Part shown: in pieces, positions 7,374 through 36,002 of the stretch
How positions within the stretch are numbered: the first letter of the stretch is position 1
Layout: each line of letters starts with the position of its first letter
Translations under genes and position numbers: made by a program
Source: Miltoncostaea marina
GTDB taxonomy: Bacteria > Actinomycetota > Thermoleophilia > Miltoncostaeales > Miltoncostaeaceae
Assembly (NCBI RefSeq): GCF_018141525.1
Contig: NZ_CP064655.1
Span: forward strand, 434,001-498,000
Length of the DNA stretch: 64,000 nt
Direction of reading: 5' to 3'
The notes under the pieces: generated by a model
The model's input: only the letters and a program-made list of their open reading frames with translations
What the model was told of the DNA's origin: nothing
Database searches by the model: none

Positions 7374-8969
7374 ATGGACGCCGACGTCCTCGGGACGGCT
7401 CATGAGGCATACGGGCGACGCGCGTGGGCGCTCGCGCACGAGCTCCTCGGGCGGGCCGACGCCGTCGCGCCGCTCGGCGCCGATGACCTCGAGCGGCTGG
7501 CCGTCGCGGCCTACATGCTCGGCCGGGACGACGAGCAGATCGACGCGCTCGCGCGTGCCCATCGCGCCCACCTCCGCGGCGGCCGGCGCGCGGGCGCCGT
7601 GCGCGCCGCGTTCTGGCTGGCCGTCCACCTGACCATCAGGGGGGAGGCCGCCCGGGCCACGGGATGGCTGCGCCGGGCGCGCCGGCTGATGGCCCAGGAG
7701 GCGGGCGACTGCCCGGAGCGGGGCTACCTGGCCTCGGCGGACGCGCTGCGGTGCATGGCGTCAGGGGACTGGGCGGGCACCCGCCTCGCGGCGAGCCGCG
7801 CCGTCGAGGCCGGGCAGCGGTTCGGCGACCCGGACCTGGTCGCGCTCGGGCTCGCGGACCTCGGACGGGCGCTGGTCGAGGAGGGCTCCGTCGTCGACGG
7901 CCTCGAGGCGCTCGACGAGGCGATGGTGGCGGCCACGGCGGGCGAGCTGACGCCGGTCGCCACGGGCTTCGTCTACTGCGGCGTGATCGAGGGCTGCCAC
8001 GCGGCGTTCGATCTGGCGCGCGCCGGCGAGTGGACCGCCGCGCTGGCGGGCTGGTGCGCCCAGCAGCCGGATCTCGTCCCCTTCACGGGCACCTGCCTGT
8101 TGCACCGCGCCGAGATCCTGCAGGTGCGCGGCGCGTGGGACGAGGCCCTGGCCGAGGCGGGCACGGCGGCCCGCCGCTTCGCGGAGCGCCGGGATCGGCG
8201 CGCCGCCGGCGAGGCGTGGTACCGGTGCGGCGAGGTCCTCCGCGCACGGGGGGACGTGCCGGGCGCCGAGCGCGCGTTCCGGCAGGCCAGCCGGCACGGG
8301 CGCGAGCCGCAGCCGGGCCTGGCGTTGCTGCGGCTCGACCAGGGGCGCGCCGACGTCGCATGGGCGGCCGTCCGGGGGGCGCTCGACGCGGCCGGCGGCT
8401 GGGTCGAGCGCGCGCGCCTGCTCCCGGCGTACGTCGACATCGCGCTCGCGGCGGGCGACCTCGACGCGGCGTCGGCGGCGAGCGACGAGCTCGGGGAGAT
8501 CGCCGCGCGCAACGGGCGGACCATGCTGCGCGCGGCGGCCGAGCAGGCGCGCGGCGCCGTGGAGCTGGCCGGGGGGCGCGCCCGCGAGGCCGCCGCGCGA
8601 CTGCGGCGGGCCGCGCAGATGTGGCTCGACCTCGCGGCGCCCTACGAGGCGGCCCGCGCCCGGATGCTCGTGGCGGCGGCGTGCAGGGCCACGGGCGACA
8701 CGGAGACGGCGACGCTGGAGGACGCCGCCGCGCGGGAGGAGCTCGCCCGGCTGGGCGCCGTGGCCGGGCGCGAGCGGCACGGCCTGACGCCGCGCGAGCT
8801 CCAGGTGCTGCGCCGGCTCGCCACCGGCGAGAGCAACACGGCGATCGCCGCGCGGCTCGGGGTGAGTCGGCGGACCGTCGACCGCCACGTGAGCAACCTC
8901 TACGCGAAGCTCCGCGTCTCGTCGCGCGCGGCGGCGACGGCCTACGCCTACGAGCACGAGCTCGTCTGA
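7374..8969 (+). CDS. LuxR-family transcriptional regulator with TPR-like N-terminal region
   Basis: 531-residue regulator. Residues 1-450 are a superhelix of alanine-rich TPR-like repeats (for example AWDEALAEAGTAARRFAERRD and GEAWYRCGEVLRARG). The C-terminal 65 residues are a GerE/LuxR DNA-binding domain with LTPRELQVLRRLATGESNTAIAARLGVSRRTVDRHVSNLYAKL readable in pieces: LTPRELQVL, SNTAIAARLGVSRRTVDRH, SNLYAKLRV. There is no LAL-type ATPase, so it is a short TPR-LuxR form. The ATG at 7374 has a GAGGGGG ribosome site. A perfect palindrome begins at its stop codon, and the flavoenzyme gene downstream is a likely target or partner. Confidence 0.9.
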   Translation: MDADVLGTAHEAYGRRAWALAHELLGRADAVAPLGADDLERLAVAAYMLGRDDEQIDALARAHRAHLRGGRRAGAVRAAFWLAVHLTIRGEAARATGWLRRARRLMAQEAGDCPERGYLASADALRCMASGDWAGTRLAASRAVEAGQRFGDPDLVALGLADLGRALVEEGSVVDGLEALDEAMVAATAGELTPVATGFVYCGVIEGCHAAFDLARAGEWTAALAGWCAQQPDLVPFTGTCLLHRAEILQVRGAWDEALAEAGTAARRFAERRDRRAAGEAWYRCGEVLRARGDVPGAERAFRQASRHGREPQPGLALLRLDQGRADVAWAAVRGALDAAGGWVERARLLPAYVDIALAAGDLDAASAASDELGEIAARNGRTMLRAAAEQARGAVELAGGRAREAAARLRRAAQMWLDLAAPYEAARARMLVAAACRATGDTETATLEDAAAREELARLGAVAGRERHGLTPRELQVLRRLATGESNTAIAARLGVSRRTVDRHVSNLYAKLRVSSRAAATAYAYEHELV

Positions 8970-9004
8970 CCCCGGCGTGGGTCATCCGACCCACGCCGGG
9001 GTCA
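8967..9004 (+). terminator. Perfect 17-bp inverted repeat at the luxR stop codon
   Basis: Arms 8967-8983 and 8988-9004 are perfectly complementary around a four-base loop (ATCC). The TGA stop of the LuxR gene is the first three bases of the left arm. There is no T-tract, which is common for GC-rich actinobacterial terminators. Its length and perfection also allow an operator role for the downstream gene at 9088. Confidence 0.7.
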
Positions 9005-14070: not shown

Positions 14071-14260
14071 GTTCCGCCTCCGTGACGAGTTCGCCGACGG
14101 GGCGGGATGCCGTCCCGCCCGAGGCGGTCGCGCCCGGCGGCGCTCCGCCTCACGCCACGCGATGGCCGAGTCGGGGCCCGTCCGGACGGAGGGGCGCCGG
14201 CGACCGCCGATGCCGTGCCGGCGCGCCGGACTGCGGCGCGGCGGTGCGGGGCGGCCGGGA

Positions 14261-14303
14261 TGGGCCGTGTCGGGATCGAACCGACGACCTTGGGATTAAA
14301 AGC
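14261..14303 (-). tRNA. tRNA-Lys(TTT) 3' half, probable attachment site remnant
   Basis: Read on the minus strand this is exactly tRNA positions 32-73: anticodon loop CTTTTAA, 3' anticodon stem TCCCA, variable loop AGGTC, T-stem GTCGG with loop TTCGATC and CCGAC, acceptor ACGGCCC and discriminator A. The 5' half (acceptor GGGCCGT, D-arm, 5' anticodon stem) is absent from the following bases. Breakage inside the anticodon loop is typical of tyrosine-integrase crossover sites. It marks the left edge of the plasmid-like element. Confidence 0.85.
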
Positions 14304-14412
14304 AGCCTCGGGTGTTCTCGGTCGGCCTCGGCTCGTCTCGGGAACTACGCTTCATGACGGCGTTCGCGTCGGTCTGCGGCGTCGCCTGTCTCGCGTCGCC
14401 TCGGCCGCTCTC

Positions 14413-14433
14413 GTTGTCACCCTGTTGTCACCC
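14413..14433 (+). repeat. Two tandem GTTGTCACCC repeats upstream of rep
   Basis: GTTGTCACCC occurs at 14413-14422 and again at 14424-14433, an 11-bp period, just before the Rep start at 14444. It could be an operator or iteron pair for the initiator. Confidence 0.5.
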
Positions 14434-14443
14434 CGGCGAGCCG

Positions 14444-15424
14444 ATGAATGCCGCACAGGCGCCGCCCAGGACGGGCGATCCGAGGCTTCGCGAGCTCCTC
14501 GAGCGGGGGCTCGCTCAGGCGCTCGAGCGCGAGGCGGTCACATCGGCGGACACAACAGAAGGTGTCTCGTCGGAGCAGCTGTCCAAGCCTGCTGCCCCCA
14601 GGTCACTCGGACTCGCCTCTGACAGGGCCTGCGTGGAGTCGAACCTGGCCCGCAAGGGTCTCTGGCGCTCGTCCGCCGGCGCCGGCGGAGAGCTGGTGCG
14701 CCTGCTCGACGCCACGGACCAGCTGGGCATGGTCCAGCGGATCGACGCGGGTCCGCCGCTCGGCGCGCTCGCCTTCGACGTGATCGTGTGGATCTGCTCG
14801 CGCTGGCGCGAGATCGGCTGCGCCGACGAGCGCCACGTGCCCTTCACCCTCGAGGCTTTAGCCGCCGACCTCGGCTGGCGAAAGGGCGGTGGCGCTGCCC
14901 TCGAACTCGCCGCCGTACTGGATGCGCTGCGCCAGGCGACCTTCCGCGCACGGGTCTACAACGCCTGTCTACAGGAAACGCGGATCGACACCTTCGGCCT
15001 CATCGACCGGTGGGAGCGCGGTGAGCCGTGCCGGTCGGGTCGGTCTGCCCGGCCTGGCTTTCTCGTCCTGGGCGATTGGCTTCACGACCAGCTCGCCCGC
15101 GATCACGTGACCTACGTCAGCTGGTCCGAGATGCGGGCGCTTCAGGGTGCCACCGCGCGGCGGCTGCTGGTCTATCTGGACGCCGAGCGCTTCACGGGCC
15201 GGCGGTGGTCCCGGCCTGTCGATCCGCCGCTTCTGGCGACGCTCGGGATCACGGCGGCTCAACCACACCACCAGCGGGCCACGTTGCGCCGTGCCGCCAG
15301 CGAGATCACAGGCGCGCCAAATCGCTACGGGCTCGTCGGCATCGAGCCGGGGCGACGCCGCGGCGAGCACCGACTCGTTGCCGAGCGACGGTTGCCGACC
15401 ATGGCGATGAAGCGGGGCGGATGA
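14444..15424 (+). CDS. Plasmid replication initiator-like protein (RepA/TrfA type)
   Basis: 326 residues. The core resembles winged-helix plasmid initiators: GALAFDVIVWICSRWREIGC, a helix with FTLEALAADLGWRKGGG, then VLDALRQATFRARVYNA and RIDTFGLIDRWERG. A second winged half starts at FLVLGDWLHDQLARDHVTYVSWSEMRAL. The C-terminus is basic (GIEPGRRRGEHRLVAERR), fitting DNA contact. The ATG at 14444 follows two tandem 11-bp repeats, and the gene is followed by an iteron- and palindrome-rich region, which supports a replication role. The exact Rep family is not certain. The frame stays open upstream into the tRNA remnant, but nothing there looks coding. Confidence 0.65.
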   Translation: MNAAQAPPRTGDPRLRELLERGLAQALEREAVTSADTTEGVSSEQLSKPAAPRSLGLASDRACVESNLARKGLWRSSAGAGGELVRLLDATDQLGMVQRIDAGPPLGALAFDVIVWICSRWREIGCADERHVPFTLEALAADLGWRKGGGAALELAAVLDALRQATFRARVYNACLQETRIDTFGLIDRWERGEPCRSGRSARPGFLVLGDWLHDQLARDHVTYVSWSEMRALQGATARRLLVYLDAERFTGRRWSRPVDPPLLATLGITAAQPHHQRATLRRAASEITGAPNRYGLVGIEPGRRRGEHRLVAERRLPTMAMKRGG

Positions 15425-15614
15425 CGCGATGGAGCGGGGGAGTCGGCGCGATGACAACGCACGCAATTCACGCTTGCGGGGGCGGCGCAGTCGCTGCGAT
15501 GCGGCAGGGCAGATCGTGCGGCCGAGCCGGGCGGTCCATGCGATGCGACCGGGGCAGGGAGGGCGATGCGCCACGCCGGGAATCGCCTGCAATCGCGAGA
15601 GGAGCCGATGGAGC

Positions 15615-15647
15615 AGTCCGTGATAAGTCCGGGATCAGTCCGGCGCC
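15615..15647 (+). repeat. Three 11-bp iteron-like repeats (AGTCCG...)
   Basis: AGTCCG occurs at 15615, 15626 and 15637, exactly 11 bp apart, as AGTCCGTGATA, AGTCCGGGATC and AGTCCGGCGCC. One helical turn of spacing places all copies on the same DNA face, as in initiator-binding iterons. Confidence 0.6.
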
Positions 15648-15680
15648 GATGCGCGTTCTCGCCGAAAGGCGCTCGTGGCG

Positions 15681-15767
15681 TCCCAGGCCGCTACCCTCGC
15701 GAGTCCGGGCGCTCCGCGCCCGAGGCGACAACGGATGTTGTCGCCTCGCGAGGGTAGCGGCCTGGGA
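15681..15767. repeat. Nested inverted repeat: 23-bp stem enclosing two hairpins (cloverleaf)
   Basis: Arms 15681-15703 and 15745-15767 are perfectly complementary over 23 bases. The 41 bases between them contain a GGGCGC/GCGCCC hairpin (15707-15712 with 15716-15721) and an 11-bp perfect hairpin (15722-15732 with 15737-15747, loop GGAT) that shares three bases with the outer right arm. It could extrude as a cruciform or fold as single-stranded DNA: an origin, a single-strand recombination site, or a regulatory RNA. Confidence 0.85.
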
Positions 15768-15868
15768 GGACGGATCGAACGAGAACCGCTTCATGAAGCC
15801 GTTCTGCTCTCCGGAACGCGTCGAAAAGAATAACTACGACGCAACGCGTCAGTGATACGTTTCGGGCC

Positions 15869-17641
15869 GTGACGAACGCCCACACGCGCCGCCAGGCGGC
15901 CCTCAAGGCGATCGAGCAGGTGCGTGGCGGCACCCAAGCGGGCAGCGTCGAGACCGAGTCGATCGACTTCAAGGAAGAGGCTGGCAGCGTCGGTCGCGAC
16001 GGGGCCCGCCGCCCGATCGATGCCCGGGACGAAGGTGCGGCGCGCGCGCTCGCCGAGGAGGCGGCGTGCCTGGCCAACTCGGATCAGGGAGGGGTCCTGA
16101 TCGTGGGGGTCGATGATCGCGCCGCGGGCGAGGCGGCGTTCGTCGGCGCATACCTCGACACAGCGTGGTTGCGACAGCGGATCTACGCCCTCACCACACC
16201 CGGTCTGGCGGTCGATGAGCCAGAGGAGGTGACGGTCGCGGGCGCCCGGGTCTACCTGGTGAACGTCGCTCCGGCGCTGGAGGAGATCCGCTGTCAGGGG
16301 AAGTTGCGTGCGCGTCTGGGTACCGACTGCGTCGAGCTCACCGGGGACCGCGCGCGCCAGTTCCTCGAGCGGCGGCGCAATTACGACTGGAGCTCAGCGC
16401 CGTCCGGGCTGCGCCTATCGGACGCCTCGCGAGAGGCGCTCTCCTCTGCCCGCCGGCACTTCCGCGACGAGCACGGGGCCGAGGCCCAGGGCGACCTCGC
16501 GGTCGTCCGTCGGCTCGGCGTGGCCATCGATGACGGCGATGATCCGGTCCTCAGCAGGGCGGGCGCCCTGCTGCTCTGCGTCTACGACGACGATGGCGGC
16601 GGACTCGATCTTCAGGTCAAAGTCGGAGAGGGCGCGCCTTCCCAGGCGCGACTCGAGCTGCGAGCCCCCCTCATCGTCGCCTTCGATCGCGCGTGGGCCG
16701 AGCTCGACCGCGTTCTGCCCGCGTCCGCCGAGATCGTCGGGGCCCAGCGCCGGCAGATTCGACCGCTTCCGATGACCGCCATCCGGGAGACGCTCGCCAA
16801 CGCGATCGCCCACCGCGACTATCGGCTCGTCCGCGGCGCGACGGTCATCCTGGCCCTTGGGGAGCCAACGCGCATCCTCAAGGTCACCTCGCCAGGGACA
16901 CTCCCGCCAGGCGTATCGGTCGATCGGTTGATCGCCACTCCGTCCCGACCGCGCAACCCGGCGCTCGCCGGCGCGCTGCGCGCTCTTGGCATCGGGGAGG
17001 GCGAGGGCATCGGGATCGACCGCATGTTCGGCGCGATGCTCCGCGAGGGGCATCCGCCGCCCGAGATCGACGAGGCCGCCGGCGACGTGTCGGTGCGGCT
17101 CTCCGGCGGCCGGTCGGACCCGGTGATCCTTGACCTCTACGACCGGATCTTCAGCCGCGATCCCGCGCTGCAGGAGGACGTGCGCACTCCGATCGCCGTG
17201 AGTCTGCTGCTTGCCGAGACACCGCTGCGCCCGGAGCGGGTGGCCGGGGTCGCCCAGTGCTCGACCGCGGAGGCGCTCGAGGCGCTCGAGGCACTGGAGC
17301 GGGCCGGCGTCATCACTCGCCTGACCAACCGGGCGCGCTCGTTCTCTCTTGCGCCAGACGTTCGCACCGAACTCGGTGCGAGGGTCGCCTATCAGCCGCG
17401 GCGAGCGATCGAGGAGCATTGGCAGCTTGTCCGGGCATACCTCGACTCGCGTCCGGTCATCGGGCGCGAGGACGCCGCGGAGCTGTTGCAGGTCAGCGCG
17501 GTGCGCGCATCGCAGGTACTGAGTGAATTGAGCCGGCGAGGCGACATCGAGCCGGTTGACCGCGCCAGGGGGCGAGGCGTCCGGTACCGACGTGCAGCCT
17601 CAGACGGCTCGGCCGCGCGGCAAGCCGCGGCTCCCAAGTGA
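15869..17641 (+). CDS. Schlafen-like AlbA_2 ATPase with RecG-type HATPase and winged-helix domains
   Basis: 590 residues. The N-terminal AlbA_2 (Slfn) domain has ESIDFKEEAG at residues 30-39 and ACLANSDQGGVLIVGVDDR near 70. A central HATPase_c_4 domain carries AIRETLANAIAHRDY with N311, H315, R316, D317 and Y318, then LKVTSPGTLPPG and the GIGEGEGIGIDRM ATP-lid. The C-terminal third holds two winged-helix segments. Such proteins act as DNA/RNA-binding regulators and in anti-phage systems. The GTG at 15869 has no ribosome site; a GATACG about ten bases upstream may be a -10 box giving a near-leaderless message. Its TGA overlaps the GTG of the next gene. It directly follows the palindrome region. 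Confidence 0.85.
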   Translation: MTNAHTRRQAALKAIEQVRGGTQAGSVETESIDFKEEAGSVGRDGARRPIDARDEGAARALAEEAACLANSDQGGVLIVGVDDRAAGEAAFVGAYLDTAWLRQRIYALTTPGLAVDEPEEVTVAGARVYLVNVAPALEEIRCQGKLRARLGTDCVELTGDRARQFLERRRNYDWSSAPSGLRLSDASREALSSARRHFRDEHGAEAQGDLAVVRRLGVAIDDGDDPVLSRAGALLLCVYDDDGGGLDLQVKVGEGAPSQARLELRAPLIVAFDRAWAELDRVLPASAEIVGAQRRQIRPLPMTAIRETLANAIAHRDYRLVRGATVILALGEPTRILKVTSPGTLPPGVSVDRLIATPSRPRNPALAGALRALGIGEGEGIGIDRMFGAMLREGHPPPEIDEAAGDVSVRLSGGRSDPVILDLYDRIFSRDPALQEDVRTPIAVSLLLAETPLRPERVAGVAQCSTAEALEALEALERAGVITRLTNRARSFSLAPDVRTELGARVAYQPRRAIEEHWQLVRAYLDSRPVIGREDAAELLQVSAVRASQVLSELSRRGDIEPVDRARGRGVRYRRAASDGSAARQAAAPK

Positions 17642-18439
17642 GAACCAACGGGAAGGCTGAGCTCGACGATCTCCTCGACTCAGCGCTGCGATCGACCGGA
17701 CCCGGATCCCGAACGGTCCGGCGGCTCATGTCCTCGCCGTCATCGTCGCGACCCTCGTGCGCTGCCGGCGGCTTGCGAAGGCCGCTCGCCTCCTTTTCGA
17801 TCACGATCTCCAACTCGAGGCGGAGATAGTCGTCCGCTCCCTCATGGAGACCGCTGTTGGCCTCGCCTGGATCGTCGGAGCCGACACTGAGATCCGGGCC
17901 GAACGCCTCCGGTTGAAGGATCTGCTTTCCCGCATCGATCTGGCGGAGCGAATCCAATCGCTCGAGACCGAAGCGTTTGATCGTGAGGGGGATACGCCGG
18001 CCGAGGCGCAGACCGAGGCCGTGCGCCTCGGCAGTGTCGAGACCGATGTCGGGGACCTGCTCAACACCATGCGCGAACAACGAGACCAGCTCCTCCAGCA
18101 GGGGCTCAAGCGGCCCCCCAATGTGAGGGCGATGGCAGAGGAAGCCGGCTACGGCGTCGGCTACCTCGACTTCGCGTTCAAGAGCGAGGGTCGGACCCAC
18201 TTTCGCATCCTGAGCCTTGAGCCGTTCCTTCTGGACCGGTCCGAGGGGGATGAGTGGCTCGTAGATGCTGCGGGTCCTCGGACGCAGCTGGACGACCCGC
18301 CCTACGAAACCGCGGCCCTGTGGCTGCTCGTGCGCTGAAGGAGGCGGCAGCGGCGTTCCCGACAAAGACGCTGCCATGGATTGAACGCATTGAGGAGATC
18401 GAGGCGCGTCTCCGGTCCGGTATCGACGACGCACGATGA
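17638..18439 (+). pseudogene. DUF5677-like protein split by two apparent frameshifts
   Basis: The GTG at 17638 overlaps the AlbA_2 stop (GTGA) and opens VRTNGKAELDDLLDSALRST. The main body, RIPNGPAAHVLAVIVATL followed by LLFDHDLQLEAEIVVRSLMETAVGLAWIV, is in another frame, entered near 17690-17710. It ends at a stop at 18338. A third frame resumes at once with ALKEAAAAFPTKTLPWIERI to 18439. The helical body with repeated acidic/arginine-bearing helices resembles DUF5677. A 582-base sub-gene from GTG 17757 could still be made. The indels are either sequencing errors or decay. Coupling to AlbA_2 suggests a joint function. Confidence 0.6.
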
Positions 18440-18464
18440 GCGAGGCCGGCAGCGAAGCCGAGCG

Positions 18465-19232
18465 CTACCTGCGGATGGCGTCCGCGACCTGGTCGGCGAT
18501 CTCCTCCACGGTGTAGTCGGACGTGCGCAGCGCCACCTTGTCGGCCAGCGACGGGCTGGCAGCCAGCACTTCGGACTTGGAGATGTTGTGCCAGAGGGGC
18601 AGGACCAGCTGGCGCCCGCCATGCATCTCGCGAGCAACCAGCCCGTTCAGTTCGTAGTTCGTCCAGTTCTTCGCGAAGAAGGCCTCCGACAAGACGACGA
18701 TGCCGAACCGGCTGCTCGCGATGCCCCGGTCGATGCTCTGGCGGAGGCTGGAGCCGAGCTTGAGTTCGAAGTCGTCGTACCAGACGTCGAGGTTGCGGGC
18801 GCGCAGAGCATCAGCCAGGGGACGGACGAGGCTGGCCTTGTCTTCTGTGGCATGTGAGATGAAAACGTCGTAGGCGGCTTCGAACCCCTCGCCGTGCGCG
18901 TCGTCGATCGCGTCGGCGATGGAGCCGAGCGCACCGCTGCGCGTGGTCCGTATGGGCGCTGGCTGCGGAGGAAGCACTTGAACGCCCCAGCGTCCGCGCC
19001 ACGGACGTCCGCCGTTCTCAACAACCACGTACCAGCGACCCGAGCGCGGAATCTCGAAGTTGACCGGCGAGCGTGTCGCCCGGCCTCCCTGAGCGCGCCC
19101 GCCCCGGCCAGCCTTGAACGCCGAAAAGGTGCTGGTGTCCATCAACCAGACGTTCGCCGCCTGGCCCGAAAGCGACACCGACGCGATGGCACCCCGTGGC
19201 TGCTGTCCGAGGTCTCTGTAGAGGAACTCCAC
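18465..19232 (-). CDS. DUF1883-TIR domain protein (putative NADase effector)
   Basis: 255 residues. The N-terminal DUF1883 domain covers about 1-95 (VEFLYRDLGQQPRGAIASV, then LSGQAANVWLMDTSTFSAFK and IPRSGRWYVVVENGG). A C-terminal TIR domain starts near residue 125 with YDVFISHATEDKASLVRPLA, then DVWYDDFELKLGSSLRQSID and SRFGIVVLSEAFFAKNWTNY, with the catalytic-type glutamate E194 in TNYELNGL. TIR domains of this class cleave NAD+ in defence and signalling. The GTG at 19232 is chosen because DUF1883 normally begins with M-x-F-L-x-R-D-L; the frame extends 21 codons upstream. It is convergent with the DUF5677-like gene. Confidence 0.85.
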   Translation of the reverse strand: MEFLYRDLGQQPRGAIASVSLSGQAANVWLMDTSTFSAFKAGRGGRAQGGRATRSPVNFEIPRSGRWYVVVENGGRPWRGRWGVQVLPPQPAPIRTTRSGALGSIADAIDDAHGEGFEAAYDVFISHATEDKASLVRPLADALRARNLDVWYDDFELKLGSSLRQSIDRGIASSRFGIVVLSEAFFAKNWTNYELNGLVAREMHGGRQLVLPLWHNISKSEVLAASPSLADKVALRTSDYTVEEIADQVADAIRR

Positions 19233-19414
19233 GACCCAACTATGGGGCACGGGCCGGACGCCAAATGCGCCGCTTTCCTCGGGAAGGGCCGGCACCGGCT
19301 GGGGCGGGCGGCGCTCGGTAGGACGTCGACACTCTGTCTCGTCTCCGGCGCCGAACCGTCACGCACCGAATCCTCGCCGGCGATCTCGAGCCCAGTCCGA
19401 TTACCGTACGAGCT

Positions 19415-19942
19415 ATGGCGAATGGAAGTTCAGCAGAAGAGACGACGCTGGCCGCGCTCGGCGTGCTGGCGCAGCGCGCCGCCGAGGCGAAGAGGTGGGA
19501 ACGGGGGGCGCTGGAGGAGCGCGCGGCGGCCGTGGTGGCGGCTGTGCGGGCCGGAGCCCGTCTCGAGGAGATCGCAACGGCCGCCGGGATAACGAGGGCG
19601 GCGACGTCGGTGATCGCGCGCAAGACGCTGGCTCCACGATCCGGGCGCGGCGGCCCCTACCGACGCCGTCGAGGGGTCGCGGCCTCCATCAGTGAGGTCG
19701 AGCAGGCGGCAGCGCGTGCCACGGCGGCGACGCGGAGCCGGCAACTGGCCATCGGCGACCGGGACACGGCGGTGCTCGGTGCCGCTGAAGCGGGCATCGC
19801 CGTCCGCTCCATCGCGCAGGCCATCGGTATGGACTCCAAGGTCGTCCACACCCTCATCCGGCGCCGTCGCGGCGAGGCCACGCAAGAACCCAGTGGCACG
19901 CTTGCATCGCCTGTGGCGAGTGGTGGAGCGATGACATCATAG
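19415..19942 (+). CDS. Small basic protein with two helix-turn-helix-like segments
   Basis: 175 residues. Two helix-turn-helix-like stretches are visible: RLEEIATAAGITRAATSVIARKTL at about 50-73 and VRSIAQAIGMDSKVVHTLIRRRRG near the C-terminus. They are separated by an alanine/arginine-rich helix. No named family recognised. It is likely a DNA-binding protein of the element, placed just upstream of the ssb-parB operon promoter and perhaps regulating it. The ATG at 19415 has only a weak GAGC site. Confidence 0.6.
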   Translation: MANGSSAEETTLAALGVLAQRAAEAKRWERGALEERAAAVVAAVRAGARLEEIATAAGITRAATSVIARKTLAPRSGRGGPYRRRRGVAASISEVEQAAARATAATRSRQLAIGDRDTAVLGAAEAGIAVRSIAQAIGMDSKVVHTLIRRRRGEATQEPSGTLASPVASGGAMTS

Positions 19943-19943
19943 A

Positions 19944-19973
19944 TTGACGAAAAAGCGCGCGGTCGTGTAGGGT
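19944..19973 (+). promoter_or_regulatory. Promoter-like boxes upstream of the ssb-parB operon
   Basis: TTGACG at 19944-19949 and TAGGGT at 19968-19973 are separated by 18 bases, a good match to a housekeeping sigma-factor promoter. Downstream is a leader with an imperfect hairpin (about 19991-20017, GCCCGG...CCGGGC), a GGGAGA ribosome site, a short peptide and then ssb. Confidence 0.55.
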
Positions 19974-20043
19974 CGGACCACAATCAAGAGGCCCGGCGGC
20001 GCTGCGAACGCCCCGGGCCGTGGCAACCGAAGGGAGACTTCGG

Positions 20044-20133
20044 ATGCGTTTCGACCGTACCAACGGGCGATCGGCTGCGCTCGCGCGCGCCGCTGCGACC
20101 GGCCGGGGAAGTGGGGCCACCGATGCCCGCTGA
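20044..20133 (+). CDS. 29-residue leader peptide overlapping ssb
   Basis: A short frame from ATG 20044, with GGGAGA about six bases upstream, encodes MRFDRTNGRSAALARAAATG and nine more residues (RGSGATDAR). Its TGA at 20131 lies inside the ssb gene, eight bases after the ssb start. The overlap suggests translational coupling. It is preceded by a hairpin-forming leader, so an attenuation role is possible but unproven. Confidence 0.45.
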   Translation: MRFDRTNGRSAALARAAATGRGSGATDAR

Positions 20134-20533
20134 CCTCAACACCGTCGGCCTGGTCGGCCGACTGACCCGCGACCCGGAGCTGCGCTACACCGCGGCCGGT
20201 GAGGCGGTCTGCGGCCTGCGCCTGGCCGTCTCGACCCGGACACGCGCCGACGAGGGCTGGGAGGACCGGCCGAACTTCTTCGATGTCTCGGTGTGGGGCA
20301 AGGGCGGCGAGGCCGCCGCTGAGCACCTCACCAAGGGGCGGCGCATCGGCGTCGCCGGGCGACTCACCTGGCGCGAGTGGACGACCGATGACGGCTCGCG
20401 TCGCGAGGCTGTCCAGATCGTCGCAGCGTCGATCCAGTACCTCGACGCGCCGCGCAAGGACGACGCCGCGCCGGAGCCGGTGGGTGCGCCCAACGGGAAG
20501 GGGGCCGCCAGTGGCGACGACATCCCCTTCTGA
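20123..20533 (+). CDS. ssb: Single-stranded DNA-binding protein
   Basis: 136-residue SSB. The OB-fold shows LNTVGLVGRLTRDPELRYTA near the start, then FFDVSVWGKGGEAAAEHLTKG, RIGVAGRLTWREW and VQIVAASIQYLD. The C-terminal tail is short and ends in the protein-recruiting tip DDIPF. It protects single strands during plasmid replication or conjugation. The ATG at 20123 starts the fold and overlaps the end of the leader peptide. The end overlaps the winged-helix gene by 23 bases. Confidence 0.95.
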   Translation: MPADLNTVGLVGRLTRDPELRYTAAGEAVCGLRLAVSTRTRADEGWEDRPNFFDVSVWGKGGEAAAEHLTKGRRIGVAGRLTWREWTTDDGSRREAVQIVAASIQYLDAPRKDDAAPEPVGAPNGKGAASGDDIPF

Positions 20534-21119
20534 GCGACCGCCGCTCGCCCTCGCACCGGAGCCGGCCTCCGACGAGCCGCCCCCGATCGATGAGGCCCAG
20601 GCCGACCGCCTCTACGCCGACACGATGGCGGCAGCCCGACGCGCCGCCCGCGTCGCCGCCGAGCTGGAGCGCGCCGCCCGCGCCGGTCACCCGGCCTGGC
20701 AGGCGGCCGCGACATCGGCCCGTCGGGCCGAGGCGAGCCTTCGCACGGCCGCCCAGGTGGTCCCGGACGTTCCGCCGGACGCGCCCGCCGACCCACGCCG
20801 GGCGACCGTGCTCGGCGACCTCACCATCGACCGGGCCAGGCGCGCCGCCTTCTGGACCGACACGCCGCTCGCCCTCACCCGCTTGGAGTTCGACCTGCTG
20901 GTCGCCCTGGCGGAGCGCCCCGGCGAGGTTCTCACCAAGGACGATCTGCTGCGGCGCGTGTGGGGCTACGCCGGACGGGCCCGCACCCGCACCGTCGACT
21001 CCCACGCGTCGCGCCTGCGCCGCAGCCTGCACGCCGCCGGGGCGCCCGGCGCGACGGTCGTGAACGTGTGGGGCATCGGCTACCGCCTCACGGTCACCGA
21101 CGACCCCGAGGCGGCATGA
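20511..21119 (+). CDS. OmpR/PhoB-type winged-helix protein without receiver domain
   Basis: 202 residues. A long alanine/arginine-rich helical N-terminus occupies 1-95. The Trans_reg_C domain occupies about 100-198 (ALTRLEFDLLVALAERPGEV, DDLLRRVWGYAGRARTRTV, HASRLRRSLHAAG, VVNVWGIGYRLTV). No receiver domain or phospho-aspartate is present, so DNA binding is not controlled by a typical histidine kinase. The GTG at 20511 lies inside the ssb 3' end after GGGAAGGGGG; the stop overlaps the next ATG (ATGA). Probably a regulator of element genes. Confidence 0.85.
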   Translation: MATTSPSERPPLALAPEPASDEPPPIDEAQADRLYADTMAAARRAARVAAELERAARAGHPAWQAAATSARRAEASLRTAAQVVPDVPPDAPADPRRATVLGDLTIDRARRAAFWTDTPLALTRLEFDLLVALAERPGEVLTKDDLLRRVWGYAGRARTRTVDSHASRLRRSLHAAGAPGATVVNVWGIGYRLTVTDDPEAA

Positions 21120-21418
21120 ACGGCGTCGACCACCAGGCCGCCGGCCTTCGCGCCACCGTCCGCGCCGCCATCGCGGCGGGCGGCCTCGAGGACACGGTGC
21201 GGGCGGTCCTCGAGCGGCGCTTCCCGGCCGAGGGGCCGGGCGCAAGCCTCGACGAGGCCGGGGCCGCCCTCGGGATGAGCCCGGCGATGGTCGCCCACAT
21301 CGAGTTCGCCGCGCTCTGCGCGATCGCCGCCGGGCGCTCCGGCAGAAGCGCGGCCATCCCGACGAGCAGCCGTGATCCGCATCCCGGGCGCTCGCACACC
21401 GAAGGAGGGGGAGCATGA
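21116..21418 (+). CDS. Small sigma70-region-4-like HTH protein
   Basis: 100 residues. The middle (GASLDEAGAALGMSPAMVAHIEFAALCAIAAG) resembles a sigma-factor region 4/HTH with LDEAGAALGMS as the first helix and turn. The tail is short and basic. It overlaps its neighbours on both sides by four bases (ATGA at 21116 and at 21415), so it is part of the ssb-parB operon. It probably regulates replication or partition. Confidence 0.6.
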   Translation: MNGVDHQAAGLRATVRAAIAAGGLEDTVRAVLERRFPAEGPGASLDEAGAALGMSPAMVAHIEFAALCAIAAGRSGRSAAIPTSSRDPHPGRSHTEGGGA

Positions 21419-22971
21419 CCAGCGACACCGCGCCGACGACCCTCGCGGTGCTGCCCATCGACGCGATCAGCGTCCGCGAGGGCTGGAACCCGCGCAGCGG
21501 CGACGATGAGGTCGAGCACCAGGCGCTCACCGACTCGGTGCGCGCGCAGGGCATCCTGCAGCCGCTCTTGATCGAGCGCACCGACGAGGGCGCGGTCCTG
21601 CTCGACGGGCACCGACGGCTCGCGGCCGCGCGTGCGGCCGGGATCTCCGACGTCCCGGTGATCGAGCGCAGCGGGGAGGACGGCGAGGCGCCCCAGCTCG
21701 CCGCCGCCCTCGCGGCCAACATGCGCCGCCGCGGCCTCGACCCGATCGAGGAGGCGCGCGCCTACGAGCGCGCCGCGAAGGCCGGGTGGCCGCAGCGGCG
21801 GATCGCCGAGGCGGTCGGCTGCTCGCCGCGTCACGTCTCCCAGCGGCTGCGCCTGCTGCGGTTGCCCGACGGCGTTCAGAAGGCGATCGGCGCAGGGGCG
21901 CTGCCGCTCTCGGTCGTGCCCACCGTCGAGACGATCGCCGCCGCCGCGCCCGCCGTCGCCGACGCCCTGGCCGCCGCCCTCGCCACCGGCACGATCACGG
22001 CGGCCGAGGTCAGCGACCATCCCGAGAGCGCGCTCGCCGAGCTCGCGCAGACCGTGAACGACGAGGGGTGCCCGAGGCTCGTCGCGGTTCCCGGCTACCA
22101 GGATCTCGGGGCGCTCGCGCTTCCCGCCGACCTCGCCGCGCGCGCCGAGGCGGCCGGAGTCCACGGCGTCAGCTTCTCCGCCGACGACATGGACGCTGCG
22201 CGTGCCTTCGGTTGCCTGATCGAGTTCACGAGCGGTGAGGATCGCTACTGGCACCGGGGCTTCGTGGCCGACGCCGCCTGGGTGGCGGACCGGGTTGGCC
22301 TGCACATCGAACGGGCCGAGGAGCGGACGCGCGAGGAGGCAGAGCGCAGCGCGACGATGAGCGCCGCGGACGGCCAGGAAGGCCCGGGCGACGCGGACCG
22401 CCCGAGCGAGTCGGAGGAGGAGCGGCGCCGCCGGGAGCGCCAGGAGGCCAAGGAGAACCGGCGCGCCGCCCACCTTGCCAACCTTGACCTCGGACGGCGG
22501 GCGCTGCTCGCCTACGAGGAGCCCGCCGAGATCACGATGCAGATGGCGAAGGCCGTTGTCCTTGTCGCCCTCCATCACCAGGCGCAGGACGCCGCCCAGG
22601 CGCTTCGCCTCACCCACGAGCGTCTGCAACGCACCGAGACGGTGACCACCAAGGCCGGGGCGACGCGCGAGCGGGTCCGGTACCCCGAGCGCCACGAGGC
22701 GGAGGCGGCGCTCGTGGAATGGATCGAGGGTGCGCGAACGCCGGCCCAGCTGATCGGGCGCGCGGTGCAGGCCCTGGTCGGGGCCTTCTACGCCGACCAG
22801 GAGGCCCTGCCGCAGTCCGAGCGGCGCCCGGCCGCCATGCCCGGCCGCTACGGCGGTGGGATCGCGGCCGGGCTCCCAACGGTGATGGACGGCCTCGCGC
22901 GTGAGGTGCTCCCCGAGCGCCTCGCGGCAGGCCTGCGCGAGTCCCCGGACGTCGAGGCGCTCGCCGCGTAG
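21415..22971 (+). CDS. parB: ParB/RepB/Spo0J-family partition protein
   Basis: 518 residues. The N-terminal CTPase/ParB domain shows LPIDAISVREGWNPRSGDD, ALTDSVRAQGILQPLLIER, VLLDGHRRLAAARAAG and LAANMRRRGLDPIEEARAY. The HTH is RRIAEAVGCSPRHVSQRLRLLRLP. A long C-terminal extension follows, including an acidic/arginine coiled region (EEERRRRERQEAKENRR), longer than chromosomal ParB. The GxxRxxA box sits in GHRRLAA. No parA gene is next to it, so partition may use a host or distant ATPase, or the protein may act in replication control. Last gene of the operon; a hairpin follows. Confidence 0.9.
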   Translation: MTSDTAPTTLAVLPIDAISVREGWNPRSGDDEVEHQALTDSVRAQGILQPLLIERTDEGAVLLDGHRRLAAARAAGISDVPVIERSGEDGEAPQLAAALAANMRRRGLDPIEEARAYERAAKAGWPQRRIAEAVGCSPRHVSQRLRLLRLPDGVQKAIGAGALPLSVVPTVETIAAAAPAVADALAAALATGTITAAEVSDHPESALAELAQTVNDEGCPRLVAVPGYQDLGALALPADLAARAEAAGVHGVSFSADDMDAARAFGCLIEFTSGEDRYWHRGFVADAAWVADRVGLHIERAEERTREEAERSATMSAADGQEGPGDADRPSESEEERRRRERQEAKENRRAAHLANLDLGRRALLAYEEPAEITMQMAKAVVLVALHHQAQDAAQALRLTHERLQRTETVTTKAGATRERVRYPERHEAEAALVEWIEGARTPAQLIGRAVQALVGAFYADQEALPQSERRPAAMPGRYGGGIAAGLPTVMDGLAREVLPERLAAGLRESPDVEALAA

Positions 22972-23068
22972 GACCCGCGACACCGACCGGGACGGGCGCG
23001 GCGCGGCTCAGCGGTCGCGCGCGACAGGCACCCGTCCCGGTCTGCGATCCGTGCGCCCTCGCCGGAAC

Positions 23069-23098
23069 GCCGCCGGACCTCTTGAGGGGTCCGGCGGC
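23069..23098 (+). terminator. 11-bp hairpin downstream of parB
   Basis: Arms GCCGCCGGACC (23069-23079) and GGTCCGGCGGC (23088-23098) pair perfectly around an eight-base loop. It lies 98 bases after the parB stop and has no T-tract. Terminator of the ssb-parB operon, or an oriT-type inverted repeat. Confidence 0.6.
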
Positions 23099-23282
23099 TG
23101 GCCCTGTCCGCCGCAGGATGCGGATACCGGCGCTCTGAGAGGACGCCCCGATCGGCGATTCGCCGCAAGCCCCCCTGGGCCGGACGAGGCGAGGCCCAGC
23201 CACCGAGAGGACGACTGCCCGCGGAGCGTCCCGACAGAGCCAGCGACCCGACCGGCGATCAGGAGCCGGGCACCCTTGCATC

Positions 23283-23288
23283 TATAAT
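23283..23288 (+). promoter_or_regulatory. Perfect TATAAT -10 box just before the relaxase start
   Basis: TATAAT stands out in a GC-rich setting. Transcription would begin near 23295, only about five bases before the GTG at 23300, which has no ribosome site. This points to a leaderless or near-leaderless mRNA. No good -35 box is present at the usual spacing. Confidence 0.5.
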
Positions 23289-23299
23289 GCGATCCGACG

Positions 23300-25909
23300 G
23301 TGTTGACGATACGAGCTGCCAAGGGAGCCGACTACTACGAGCGCGCCGAGTTCGCGCGCGACGACTACTACGCCGAGCGCGGGCAGGTGCGCGGGACGTG
23401 GGAGGGACGCGGCGCCGAAGCGCTCGGCCTCACCGACGCACCGGGGGACGGCGCGCTGGGCGCGCTCCTCGAGGGACGCGATCCCGCGAGCGGCGAGGAC
23501 CTGCCCGGGCGGCGCAACCGCCGCGGAGGCAACGTCGCCTTCGATCTGACGTTCGCCGCCCCCAAGGGGCTGAGCGTGCTCGCCGCGGTCGGCGACGAGG
23601 CCGTGCGGGCGGCCATCCTCTCCGCGTACGCCGAGGGGGTGCGCGCGGCGCTCGACTACCTCGAGCGGCGAGCCTGCTTCGTGCGGCGCGGCCACAACGG
23701 CGTGAGGGTCCTTCGCGCTGAGGGTTTCGTGGGCGCCATGTACCTGCACGAGATGGCCCGCTCCGGCGATCCGCACCTGCACGCGCACCTGGTGCTCGCC
23801 AACCGGGTGCGCGGCGAGGACGGCCGCTGGACCGCCCCGGACATGAGGCCGGTGTTCGCCGAGGCCAAGACCGCAGGCTTCATCGCCGAGGCGGTGGCCC
23901 GCGCGCGCCTCAGCGAGACGCTCGGCCTTGAGTGGGAGCAGACCGCCAACGGCTCGATTGACCTCGTGGCGATGCCCGCGTCGGTGCGCGAGCACTTCTC
24001 GTCCCGCCACGCGGAGATCGTCGAGCTGGCACACGCGCGCGGCTACACCGGGGCGTCGGCGATCGAGGCGATCCAACGTGAGACCCGCGACCGCAAGCGC
24101 GTCGTCTCCCGTGAACGGGCGGCGGCCGAGTGGCGCGCGCGGGCGGCCGAGCACGGGTTCGGTGCCCGCGAGGTGGCGCGGGCGACCGGCGCGGCGCGGT
24201 CGCGCTCGCGGACGGCGTACGTCGAGGGTCTGCGCGAATGCCGGCGCCGGATGGAGAGCCCCGCCGGGCTCACCCAACGGGCGTCATCGTTCACCCGCCG
24301 CGAGGTGATCCAGGATCTCGCCGACGCCCACCCAGAGGGCATCGGCGCGCACGCCCTCGAGCGCCTCGCCGACGACTTCCTCGCGGCACGCTGTGTGCCC
24401 CTCGCGCCGGCGGGTGCGGCGCCTGGGCGCGGTTACGAGGAGGCGCGCTACACGACCCCCGACATGCTCGACGTCGAGACCCGGCTGATCGACACGGCGT
24501 GCGCGGCGCCGATCGACCCACGGCTGGCGAGTCCCCTTCAGGTCGAGCGTGCGATCGGCGCCAGGCGCTCGCTCGGCGATGACCAGGCGGCAGCCGTCCG
24601 CCATCTGTGCTCCGGCGAGGCGCGCACGCGGCTGATGGAGGCGCGTGCGGGCTCGGGAAAGACGTTCGCCCTGGAGGCGGTGCGGGAGGCCTATGAGTCG
24701 TCGGGCGTCGCGGTGGTGGGAACCGCCTGGCAGGCCCAGGCGGCCGAGGTGCTGCAGCGCGACGCCGGCATCGCCTCCGAGACGACGGCGCTCATCCTGG
24801 AGCGCGCAGCGCGCGGCCAGGACGCGATTCCCGGGGGCGCGGTCGTCGTCTGTGACGAGGCCTCCACCATGCCGACGCGCGCCCTCGAGCGACTCGTCCA
24901 GGTGGTCGCTTCGCGCGGTGGCCGACTGATCCTCGTTGGCGACAGGGCGCAGCTGCCACCGGTCGACGCCGGCGGCGGCTTCGCCGCCCTCTGCGACCGG
25001 CTCGGCTCGGTCGAGCTCACCGAGAACCGTCGCCAGCGCACCGAGCTGCAAAGAGCCGTGGCCGAGCGGCTCGCCGAGGGGCGCGCCGGCGATGCGATCT
25101 CGCTCCTCGCGGAAAACGGCCGCCTGCGGACGTTCGAGGACGGCGCCGACGCCCGGCGCGCCCTGATCCGCTCCTGGGCGCAGACATCGCTTGCGGATCC
25201 CGCTGACGCCGTGATCCTCGCCCACGACCGACGCGAGGTGCGTCTGCTGAACGAGATGGCCCGGGCCGAGCTCGACCGCGCCGGACGGCTGTCGGACCGC
25301 CGCCTCGTGGCGGAGGGGCGGGAGTGGGCGATCGGCGATCGCCTGCTCTGCCGGCGCAACGACTACCGGCTCGACGTGCGCAACGGCACCCGCGGCGTCG
25401 TCGTCGGACTCGACGAGAACGAGCGGGCGCTCACGCTCTGGACCGACGATGGGCGCGAGGTCGTCCTTCCCGCCGTCTACCTGCGTCACGCCGAGCGTGG
25501 ATACGCGATGACCGGACACGTCAGCCAGGGCACGACCGTGGACCGCACCTACCTGCTCGCGACGCCCGAGAGGGGCGGCACGGAATGGGCGTACGTCGCG
25601 GGCTCACGCCAGCGGATCGATCTCGAGGTCTACGCGATCCACCCAGACCCCGAGACCCTCGCTGTCGCCCTTGAGCGCGCGTGGTCGCGGACGCAGGCGA
25701 AGGGACTCGCAATCGACATCGTCGCAGCGGGCGATCGCGGTATCGAGGAAACGGAGTCGGCCAGAGGACTCACCCACGGTCCGTCCGCGGGGTCGAAGCC
25801 GGATGTCAGTGCAGGACGAGCGTTGTCCGATCCGGATCTACGGTTGGCCGAGTCGCCCCGGCCGCACCCGCCGCCCGTGCCTGAGCGTGGGCTTGGTCGG
25901 GATCTCTAA
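23300..25909 (+). CDS. MobF (TrwC-type) conjugative relaxase-helicase
   Basis: 869 residues. The N-terminal TrwC relaxase domain starts LTIRAAKGADYYERAEF, with the catalytic tyrosine candidates Y12/Y13 and Y23/Y24. It has the three-histidine metal site in GDPHLHAHLVLANRV near residues 155-169. A RecD/TraA-like helicase follows, with Walker A ARAGSGKTFALEAV near 450, Walker B VVVCDEASTMPTRAL near 513, a GDRAQLPPV motif, and motif VI-like GHVSQGTTVDRTYLLA near 740. It nicks oriT and unwinds the transferred strand. The GTG at 23300 and TTG at 23303 are both possible starts. No coupling protein or secretion genes are present, so the element is probably mobilised with help. Confidence 0.92.
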   Translation: MLTIRAAKGADYYERAEFARDDYYAERGQVRGTWEGRGAEALGLTDAPGDGALGALLEGRDPASGEDLPGRRNRRGGNVAFDLTFAAPKGLSVLAAVGDEAVRAAILSAYAEGVRAALDYLERRACFVRRGHNGVRVLRAEGFVGAMYLHEMARSGDPHLHAHLVLANRVRGEDGRWTAPDMRPVFAEAKTAGFIAEAVARARLSETLGLEWEQTANGSIDLVAMPASVREHFSSRHAEIVELAHARGYTGASAIEAIQRETRDRKRVVSRERAAAEWRARAAEHGFGAREVARATGAARSRSRTAYVEGLRECRRRMESPAGLTQRASSFTRREVIQDLADAHPEGIGAHALERLADDFLAARCVPLAPAGAAPGRGYEEARYTTPDMLDVETRLIDTACAAPIDPRLASPLQVERAIGARRSLGDDQAAAVRHLCSGEARTRLMEARAGSGKTFALEAVREAYESSGVAVVGTAWQAQAAEVLQRDAGIASETTALILERAARGQDAIPGGAVVVCDEASTMPTRALERLVQVVASRGGRLILVGDRAQLPPVDAGGGFAALCDRLGSVELTENRRQRTELQRAVAERLAEGRAGDAISLLAENGRLRTFEDGADARRALIRSWAQTSLADPADAVILAHDRREVRLLNEMARAELDRAGRLSDRRLVAEGREWAIGDRLLCRRNDYRLDVRNGTRGVVVGLDENERALTLWTDDGREVVLPAVYLRHAERGYAMTGHVSQGTTVDRTYLLATPERGGTEWAYVAGSRQRIDLEVYAIHPDPETLAVALERAWSRTQAKGLAIDIVAAGDRGIEETESARGLTHGPSAGSKPDVSAGRALSDPDLRLAESPRPHPPPVPERGLGRDL

Positions 25910-35968: not shown

Positions 35969-36002
35969 CCGCCCCTCCGGTGCCGTGCCACCGGAGGGGC
36001 GG
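35969..36002 (+). terminator. 14-bp perfect hairpin after DUF305
   Basis: Arms 35969-35982 and 35989-36002 pair perfectly around a six-base loop (CCGTGC). It starts 18 bases after the stop codon and has no T-tract. Likely terminator insulating ccmF from DUF305. Confidence 0.75.

Follow-up and report, generated by a model that had tools for sequence, protein, structure and literature searches.

The perfect palindrome at positions 15681-15767 of the window (the whole 64-kb stretch of DNA that was analysed, part of a 3.37-Mb chromosome of genome G000) is best read as a hairpin that marks a boundary within an integrated iteron replicon, and not as a new kind of system. The explanation that we favor, with a probability of roughly 0.45, is that it acts as a U-tract-less terminator or insulator hairpin that separates the rep-oriV module from the gene after it, and that its arms are kept identical by template switching. 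The local order is attR, rep, iterons, AGTCCG repeats, palindrome, and a gene for an SLFN/AlbA_2 protein (Table 1), and the palindrome sits in the attR half of an element integrated at tRNA-Lys.

Table 1. Features surrounding the palindrome (window coordinates).
Feature	Position	Strand	Basis
attR, 44-bp 3' half of tRNA-Lys(TTT)	14259..14302	-	matches the intact tRNA-Lys (G000:C1:2835826) at its 3' end with 100% identity
rep, iteron-type replication initiator, longest ORF	14312..15424	+	tblastn and structure model
oriV iterons, consensus GGGCAGTCnnTGCGATG, 22-bp pitch, at least five	15415..15568	+	same array 3' of rep in L057, L022, L024, L025
three AGTCCG repeats, 11-bp spacing, distal oriV	15615..15642	+	at least 2 copies kept in all four relatives
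left arm of perfect palindrome	15681..15703	+	20/22 aligned bases same as L057
first inner hairpin, 7 bp, CGGGCGC/GCGCCCG	15706..15722	+	inside a 20-nt stretch missing in L057
second inner hairpin, 12 bp, 4-nt loop	15721..15748	+	not conserved in L057
right arm of perfect palindrome	15745..15767	+	both differences from L057 compensate left-arm differences
promoter-like conserved block directly 5' of the AlbA_2 GTG	15820..15868	+	91.5% identical to L057
SLFN_AlbA_2 / HATPase_c_4 protein gene	15869..17641	+	Pfam; L057 protein 88.6% identical

The anatomy is as the initial annotation had described it. The two 23-nt arms (TCCCAGGCSGCTASCCTCGCGA) are 100% complementary, lie 41 nt apart, and enclose two further hairpins, the second of which can be counted as either 11 bp (15722-15747) or 12 bp. 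The three bases CTC (15745-15747) belong both to the 11-bp hairpin and to the outer right arm, and G15722 is used by both inner hairpins, so not all of these pairs can form simultaneously. The claim that such symmetry is strongly non-random also held up. Folded as DNA, the palindrome forms a three-way junction of -53.5 kcal/mol, compared with -26.3 +/- 2.5 kcal/mol for shuffled sequences (z = -11). The longest perfect stem (spacer <= 60) in Markov-1 simulations of 64 kb was 15 bp, and the number of stems >= 23 bp expected by chance in that length is about 5e-6; the window itself contains no other perfect stem longer than 17 bp. The palindrome has no Rfam family. The sequence GTTGTCGCC is present twice, in inverted orientation, in the second inner hairpin (15726-15745), possibly by chance.

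The gene on the upstream side had been called a Rep gene, and our searches agree. Its product is 31% identical (tblastn) to the "replication initiator protein A" of Miltoncostaea oceani plasmid unnamed2, which matches Pfam RPA; the rep product itself has no Pfam match. A structure model of Rep (mean pLDDT 60, pTM 0.51) matches RctB and RepE54 with a Foldseek probability of 1.00 and E values of 2.5e-7 to 1e-3. Translation probably starts at 14441 or later within the longest ORF. The motif GTTGTCACCCT occurs twice just upstream of this likely start (14413-14433), possibly by chance. Iterons start at 15415, 15437, 15485, 15529, and 15552, with a degenerate one near 15507, and the iterons together with the AGTCCG repeats (15415-15642) are common to five Rep relatives. 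Lying directly after rep, they likely constitute oriV, as judged from their sequence and placement, and the combination of tandem iterons with a Rep whose modeled fold is of the winged-helix type is that of an iteron replicon. The Rep fold and the iteron array are shared with the RepE/RctB replicons (mini-F, Vibrio chromosome 2). The rep-oriV arrangement resembles that of SGI1, likewise an integrated element in which rep is immediately followed by an iteron oriV (PMC7433901); there, the iteron oriV directly 3' of rep was shown to be necessary for replication, and the published map also places a hairpin terminator downstream of rep (PMC7433901). SGI1 differs in being a Salmonella island that replicates, whereas replication here is putative, and in its Rep family, its hosts, its 17-bp iterons, and its hairpin, which is an ordinary short rho-independent terminator.

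We compared the window with four relatives that all carry the same iteron array after rep, namely L057, L022 (from the congener G001), and L024 and L025 (both from G018). L057 was found in a scan for Rep relatives, and its contig is 79% DNA-identical to the window over the segment that begins with the tRNA fragment and ends with the AlbA_2 gene. (The contig, JALHRF010000221.1, is labeled Bauldia sp., an alphaproteobacterium, yet carries a Miltoncostaea-type tRNA-Lys element; it is probably misbinned, the alternative being a host jump.) At the equivalent place, L057 has a palindrome with perfect 22-bp arms and a 23-nt spacer. Twenty of the 22 stem pairs are identical, and at the remaining two, positions 9 and 14, C-G has changed to G-C on both arms. 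Neither inner hairpin is present: a 20-nt stretch that includes the first is missing from the spacer, and the second has no counterpart. A small palindrome at 15782-15805 of the window is not conserved in L057 either. The arms are thus 91% identical, whereas rep and the AlbA_2 gene have 62% identity at their third codon positions; a divergence of 2/22 against 38% has a P of about 0.003. No such palindrome was found in L022, L024, or L025, whose Rep proteins are 58-73% identical and which keep the same iterons and AGTCCG repeats; just past these repeats they have short GC-rich stems of 8-9 bp, each of which is weak when taken singly (2-3 of 60 shuffles were as good).

Since L057 has the stem but not the inner hairpins, the outer stem, as far as these alignments show, is constrained in its pairing and largely in its sequence too, and the cloverleaf is an elaboration of one element. 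Looking for the structure beside Rep-like genes therefore recovered the outer stem in one homologue, but neither the nested form in that sole known homologous palindrome nor any palindrome in the other three elements; the nested symmetry stressed in the initial annotation is present in the window only.

Downstream of the palindrome, the genes encode the SLFN_AlbA_2/HATPase_c_4 protein, a DUF5677 protein, a TIR-DUF1883 protein, a short product, SSB, a Trans_reg_C protein, ParB, and a MobF/TrwC relaxase (ending at 25909). The TIR protein with its DUF1883 domain (18465-19295, minus strand), which lies beside the DUF5677 and AlbA_2 genes, matches the PADLOC models PDC-S66 and ThsB, and is likely to be anti-phage cargo of the element. 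A tblastx search of the cargo and flanks returned GC-bias noise only. In the congener G001, the element is a single unit of ~48 kb that runs from a tRNA-Lys 3' half (C1:620807) to an intact tRNA-Lys (C1:668.7 kb). In the genome of the window, tRNA-Lys, a tyrosine integrase, and the genes that follow make up the second half of the element (L026), which is found at 2.836 Mb. The two halves (14259-25909 and G000:C1:2835826 onward) are about 2.4 Mb apart, and their orientation relative to each other is reversed. The element has thus been split; a single large inversion of the chromosome that broke within the element is the simplest explanation and a probable one, an assembly error being the alternative.

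If the palindrome marks the boundary of the rep-oriV module, a rep-sense transcript would run through the iterons, and the outer stem of the palindrome, 22-23 bp long, would give the RNA a hairpin of great stability. This hairpin may halt the transcript or protect its 3' end, either as an "I-shaped" terminator or, if the transcript is processed by Rho, as the hairpin at its end, and would shield the separately promoted AlbA_2 gene. The spacer would be free to vary, the cloverleaf being a recent elaboration of it, and selection on pairing, aided by template-switch correction, may hold the arms complementary. We infer transcription through the palindrome, termination, and template switching from the following. 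The outer stem has remained perfect in L057 through two paired C-G to G-C changes, although the length and the sequence of the spacer differ, and its arms have diverged far less than third codon positions. The palindrome lies between co-directional genes, and the conserved upstream block of the AlbA_2 gene itself lies past the hairpin (a scan of 15820-15868 for a sigma-70 consensus gave no match). The small stems past the AGTCCG repeats in the other three relatives point the same way. Elsewhere in the window, long perfect hairpins at 8967-9004 (17 bp) and 35969-36002 (14 bp) lie at or right after stop codons, also without a T-run, and are candidate U-tract-less terminators of this genome.

The initial annotation had set the structure apart from terminators. 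This is correct insofar as there is no T-run on either strand or side of the palindrome, in the window or in L057, as a canonical intrinsic terminator would have, and a terminator scan did not call it. The statement is nevertheless too strong, given that Actinobacteria use hairpin terminators that lack a U-tract. In Streptomyces clavuligerus, 353 of 535 structured transcript ends have no U-rich tract (PMC8269248), and I-shaped terminators have been described in mycobacteria (PMC12288462), where termination of this kind is itself disputed in work referenced therein. With the I-shaped terminators of GC-rich Actinobacteria, the palindrome shares a stable, GC-rich, perfect, intergenic stem and the absence of a T-run. 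It differs from them in its 22-23-bp stem, its 23-41-nt spacer, and its distance from the rep stop codon, which is about 257 nt (15424 to 15681) with oriV in between, and not about 50-80 nt. Most hairpin terminators lie <= 80 nt from the stop codon (PMC8355165), and the usual loops of 4-8 nt (PMC8269248) are far from the geometry seen here. Also speaking against a boundary hairpin are the conservation of the arm sequence and not of pairing alone, which is also compatible with protein binding, and the fact that the palindrome is known in only two sequences.

Protein binding is what a first alternative would invoke: the two arms, inverted relative to each other, would be bound by the AlbA_2 protein or by another regulator of the element and so form an operator that controls the downstream gene. 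Among the five elements, the palindrome is found exactly where the AlbA_2 gene is the first gene past oriV (the window and L057) and is absent otherwise (L022, L024, L025); the 91% conservation of the arms and a C-terminus of the AlbA_2 protein that looks winged-helix-like by eye would fit as well. With only two carriers, however, the palindrome goes with rep and AlbA_2 jointly, and a link to one cannot be told from a link to the other. Moreover, remoter AlbA_2 homologues (L048-L056, at most 54% identical) have no such palindrome upstream, the 18-nt difference in spacer length would change the helical phase of the two sites, and perfect covariation over 22 bp exceeds the needs of a dimer site. 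We regard an operator, in line with the regulator-binding structure that the initial annotation had also suggested, as unlikely, although it is one of the two main rivals. The other, no more probable in our estimate, is a structural role in oriV, in which the palindrome, as a cruciform or a single-strand hairpin, would aid opening, priming, or second-strand synthesis after transfer. It does come after the iteron and AGTCCG block in both carriers, and single-stranded forms are likely in an element that encodes SSB and a MobF relaxase; but it is missing beside the same Rep and iterons in the other three elements, as a required part should not be, and the best iteron-like match within it (9/15) is not above chance (shuffled mean 8.7). 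The suggestion of a replication origin accordingly stands for the neighborhood, with its iterons and AGTCCG repeats, and not for the palindrome. A narrower version, for which we would give somewhat poorer odds, has a branch of these elements acquire an extruded cruciform or single-strand hairpin at the edge of the iteron oriV; it might, for instance, serve to prime the second strand once conjugation has taken place, and the inner hairpins would be variable landing pads.

It is equally doubtful that the palindrome has no function, having been made by one template switch in an ancestor of the two carriers, with repeated switching keeping the arms perfect and reshaping the spacer. Template switching is a process that generates perfect stems and keeps them so, with double substitutions (PMC8794818), and paired C-G to G-C changes, which cannot go via a G-U intermediate, take it a single step (PMC8794818). 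As both paired changes are transversion pairs of this one-event type, the process may account for the persistence of perfect arms irrespective of function, and the inner hairpins resemble fresh palindromization. Against a functionless palindrome, the arms have diverged so little relative to third codon positions that they look constrained.

Several other identities were considered and set aside. The palindrome is single-copy in the genome and had no convincing homologue in the scans listed here, which argues against a mobile repeat or MITE: DNA similarity searches of 399 Thermoleophilia genomes gave short partial matches only, the arm pattern matched elsewhere only with 2 mismatches and at about the rate of a reversed-pattern control, viral contigs held no homologue, and plasmids and phages yielded chance-level matches only. 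A folded single-strand recombination site, as had been proposed, found no support: the only recombinase that we found, a tyrosine integrase encoded next to tRNA-Lys, has the tRNA 3' half as its att site, 1.4 kb from the palindrome. An attC-like site would have a stem interrupted by extrahelical bases and its own recombinase close by, whereas the stem is perfect and no fitting recombinase lies nearby. Like AAV-type terminal hairpins and integron attC sites, the palindrome has a stem that encloses further hairpins and could fold as a single strand; unlike them, it is not at the end of the element, has no matching recombinase or nickase context and no attC bulges, and its inner hairpins are unconserved. 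Inverted-repeat operators of the RepE type are located 5' of their gene. The palindrome lies downstream of rep and does not resemble the iterons, and we rejected a RepE-like operator. For oriT, a better candidate than the palindrome is the conserved hairpin region that immediately precedes the relaxase gene (window 23069-23098, L023 11268-11300). In both elements, the DNA directly 5' of that gene (window 22971-23300, L023 11140-11500) contains a strong hairpin, GCCGCCGGACC..GGTCCGGCGGC, as well as the highly conserved sequence CATCTATAATGCGATC; this region is a candidate oriT and promoter.

The palindrome is a striking one, placed at the boundary between a newly recognized iteron oriV and the variable cargo of a tRNA-Lys-integrated element in a poorly studied actinobacterial class, the Thermoleophilia. 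It offers a clean two-sequence case in which a long stem was kept perfect through paired transversions while its loop was remodeled. Should the palindrome prove to be a terminator, its length would be unusual for one that has no U-tract.
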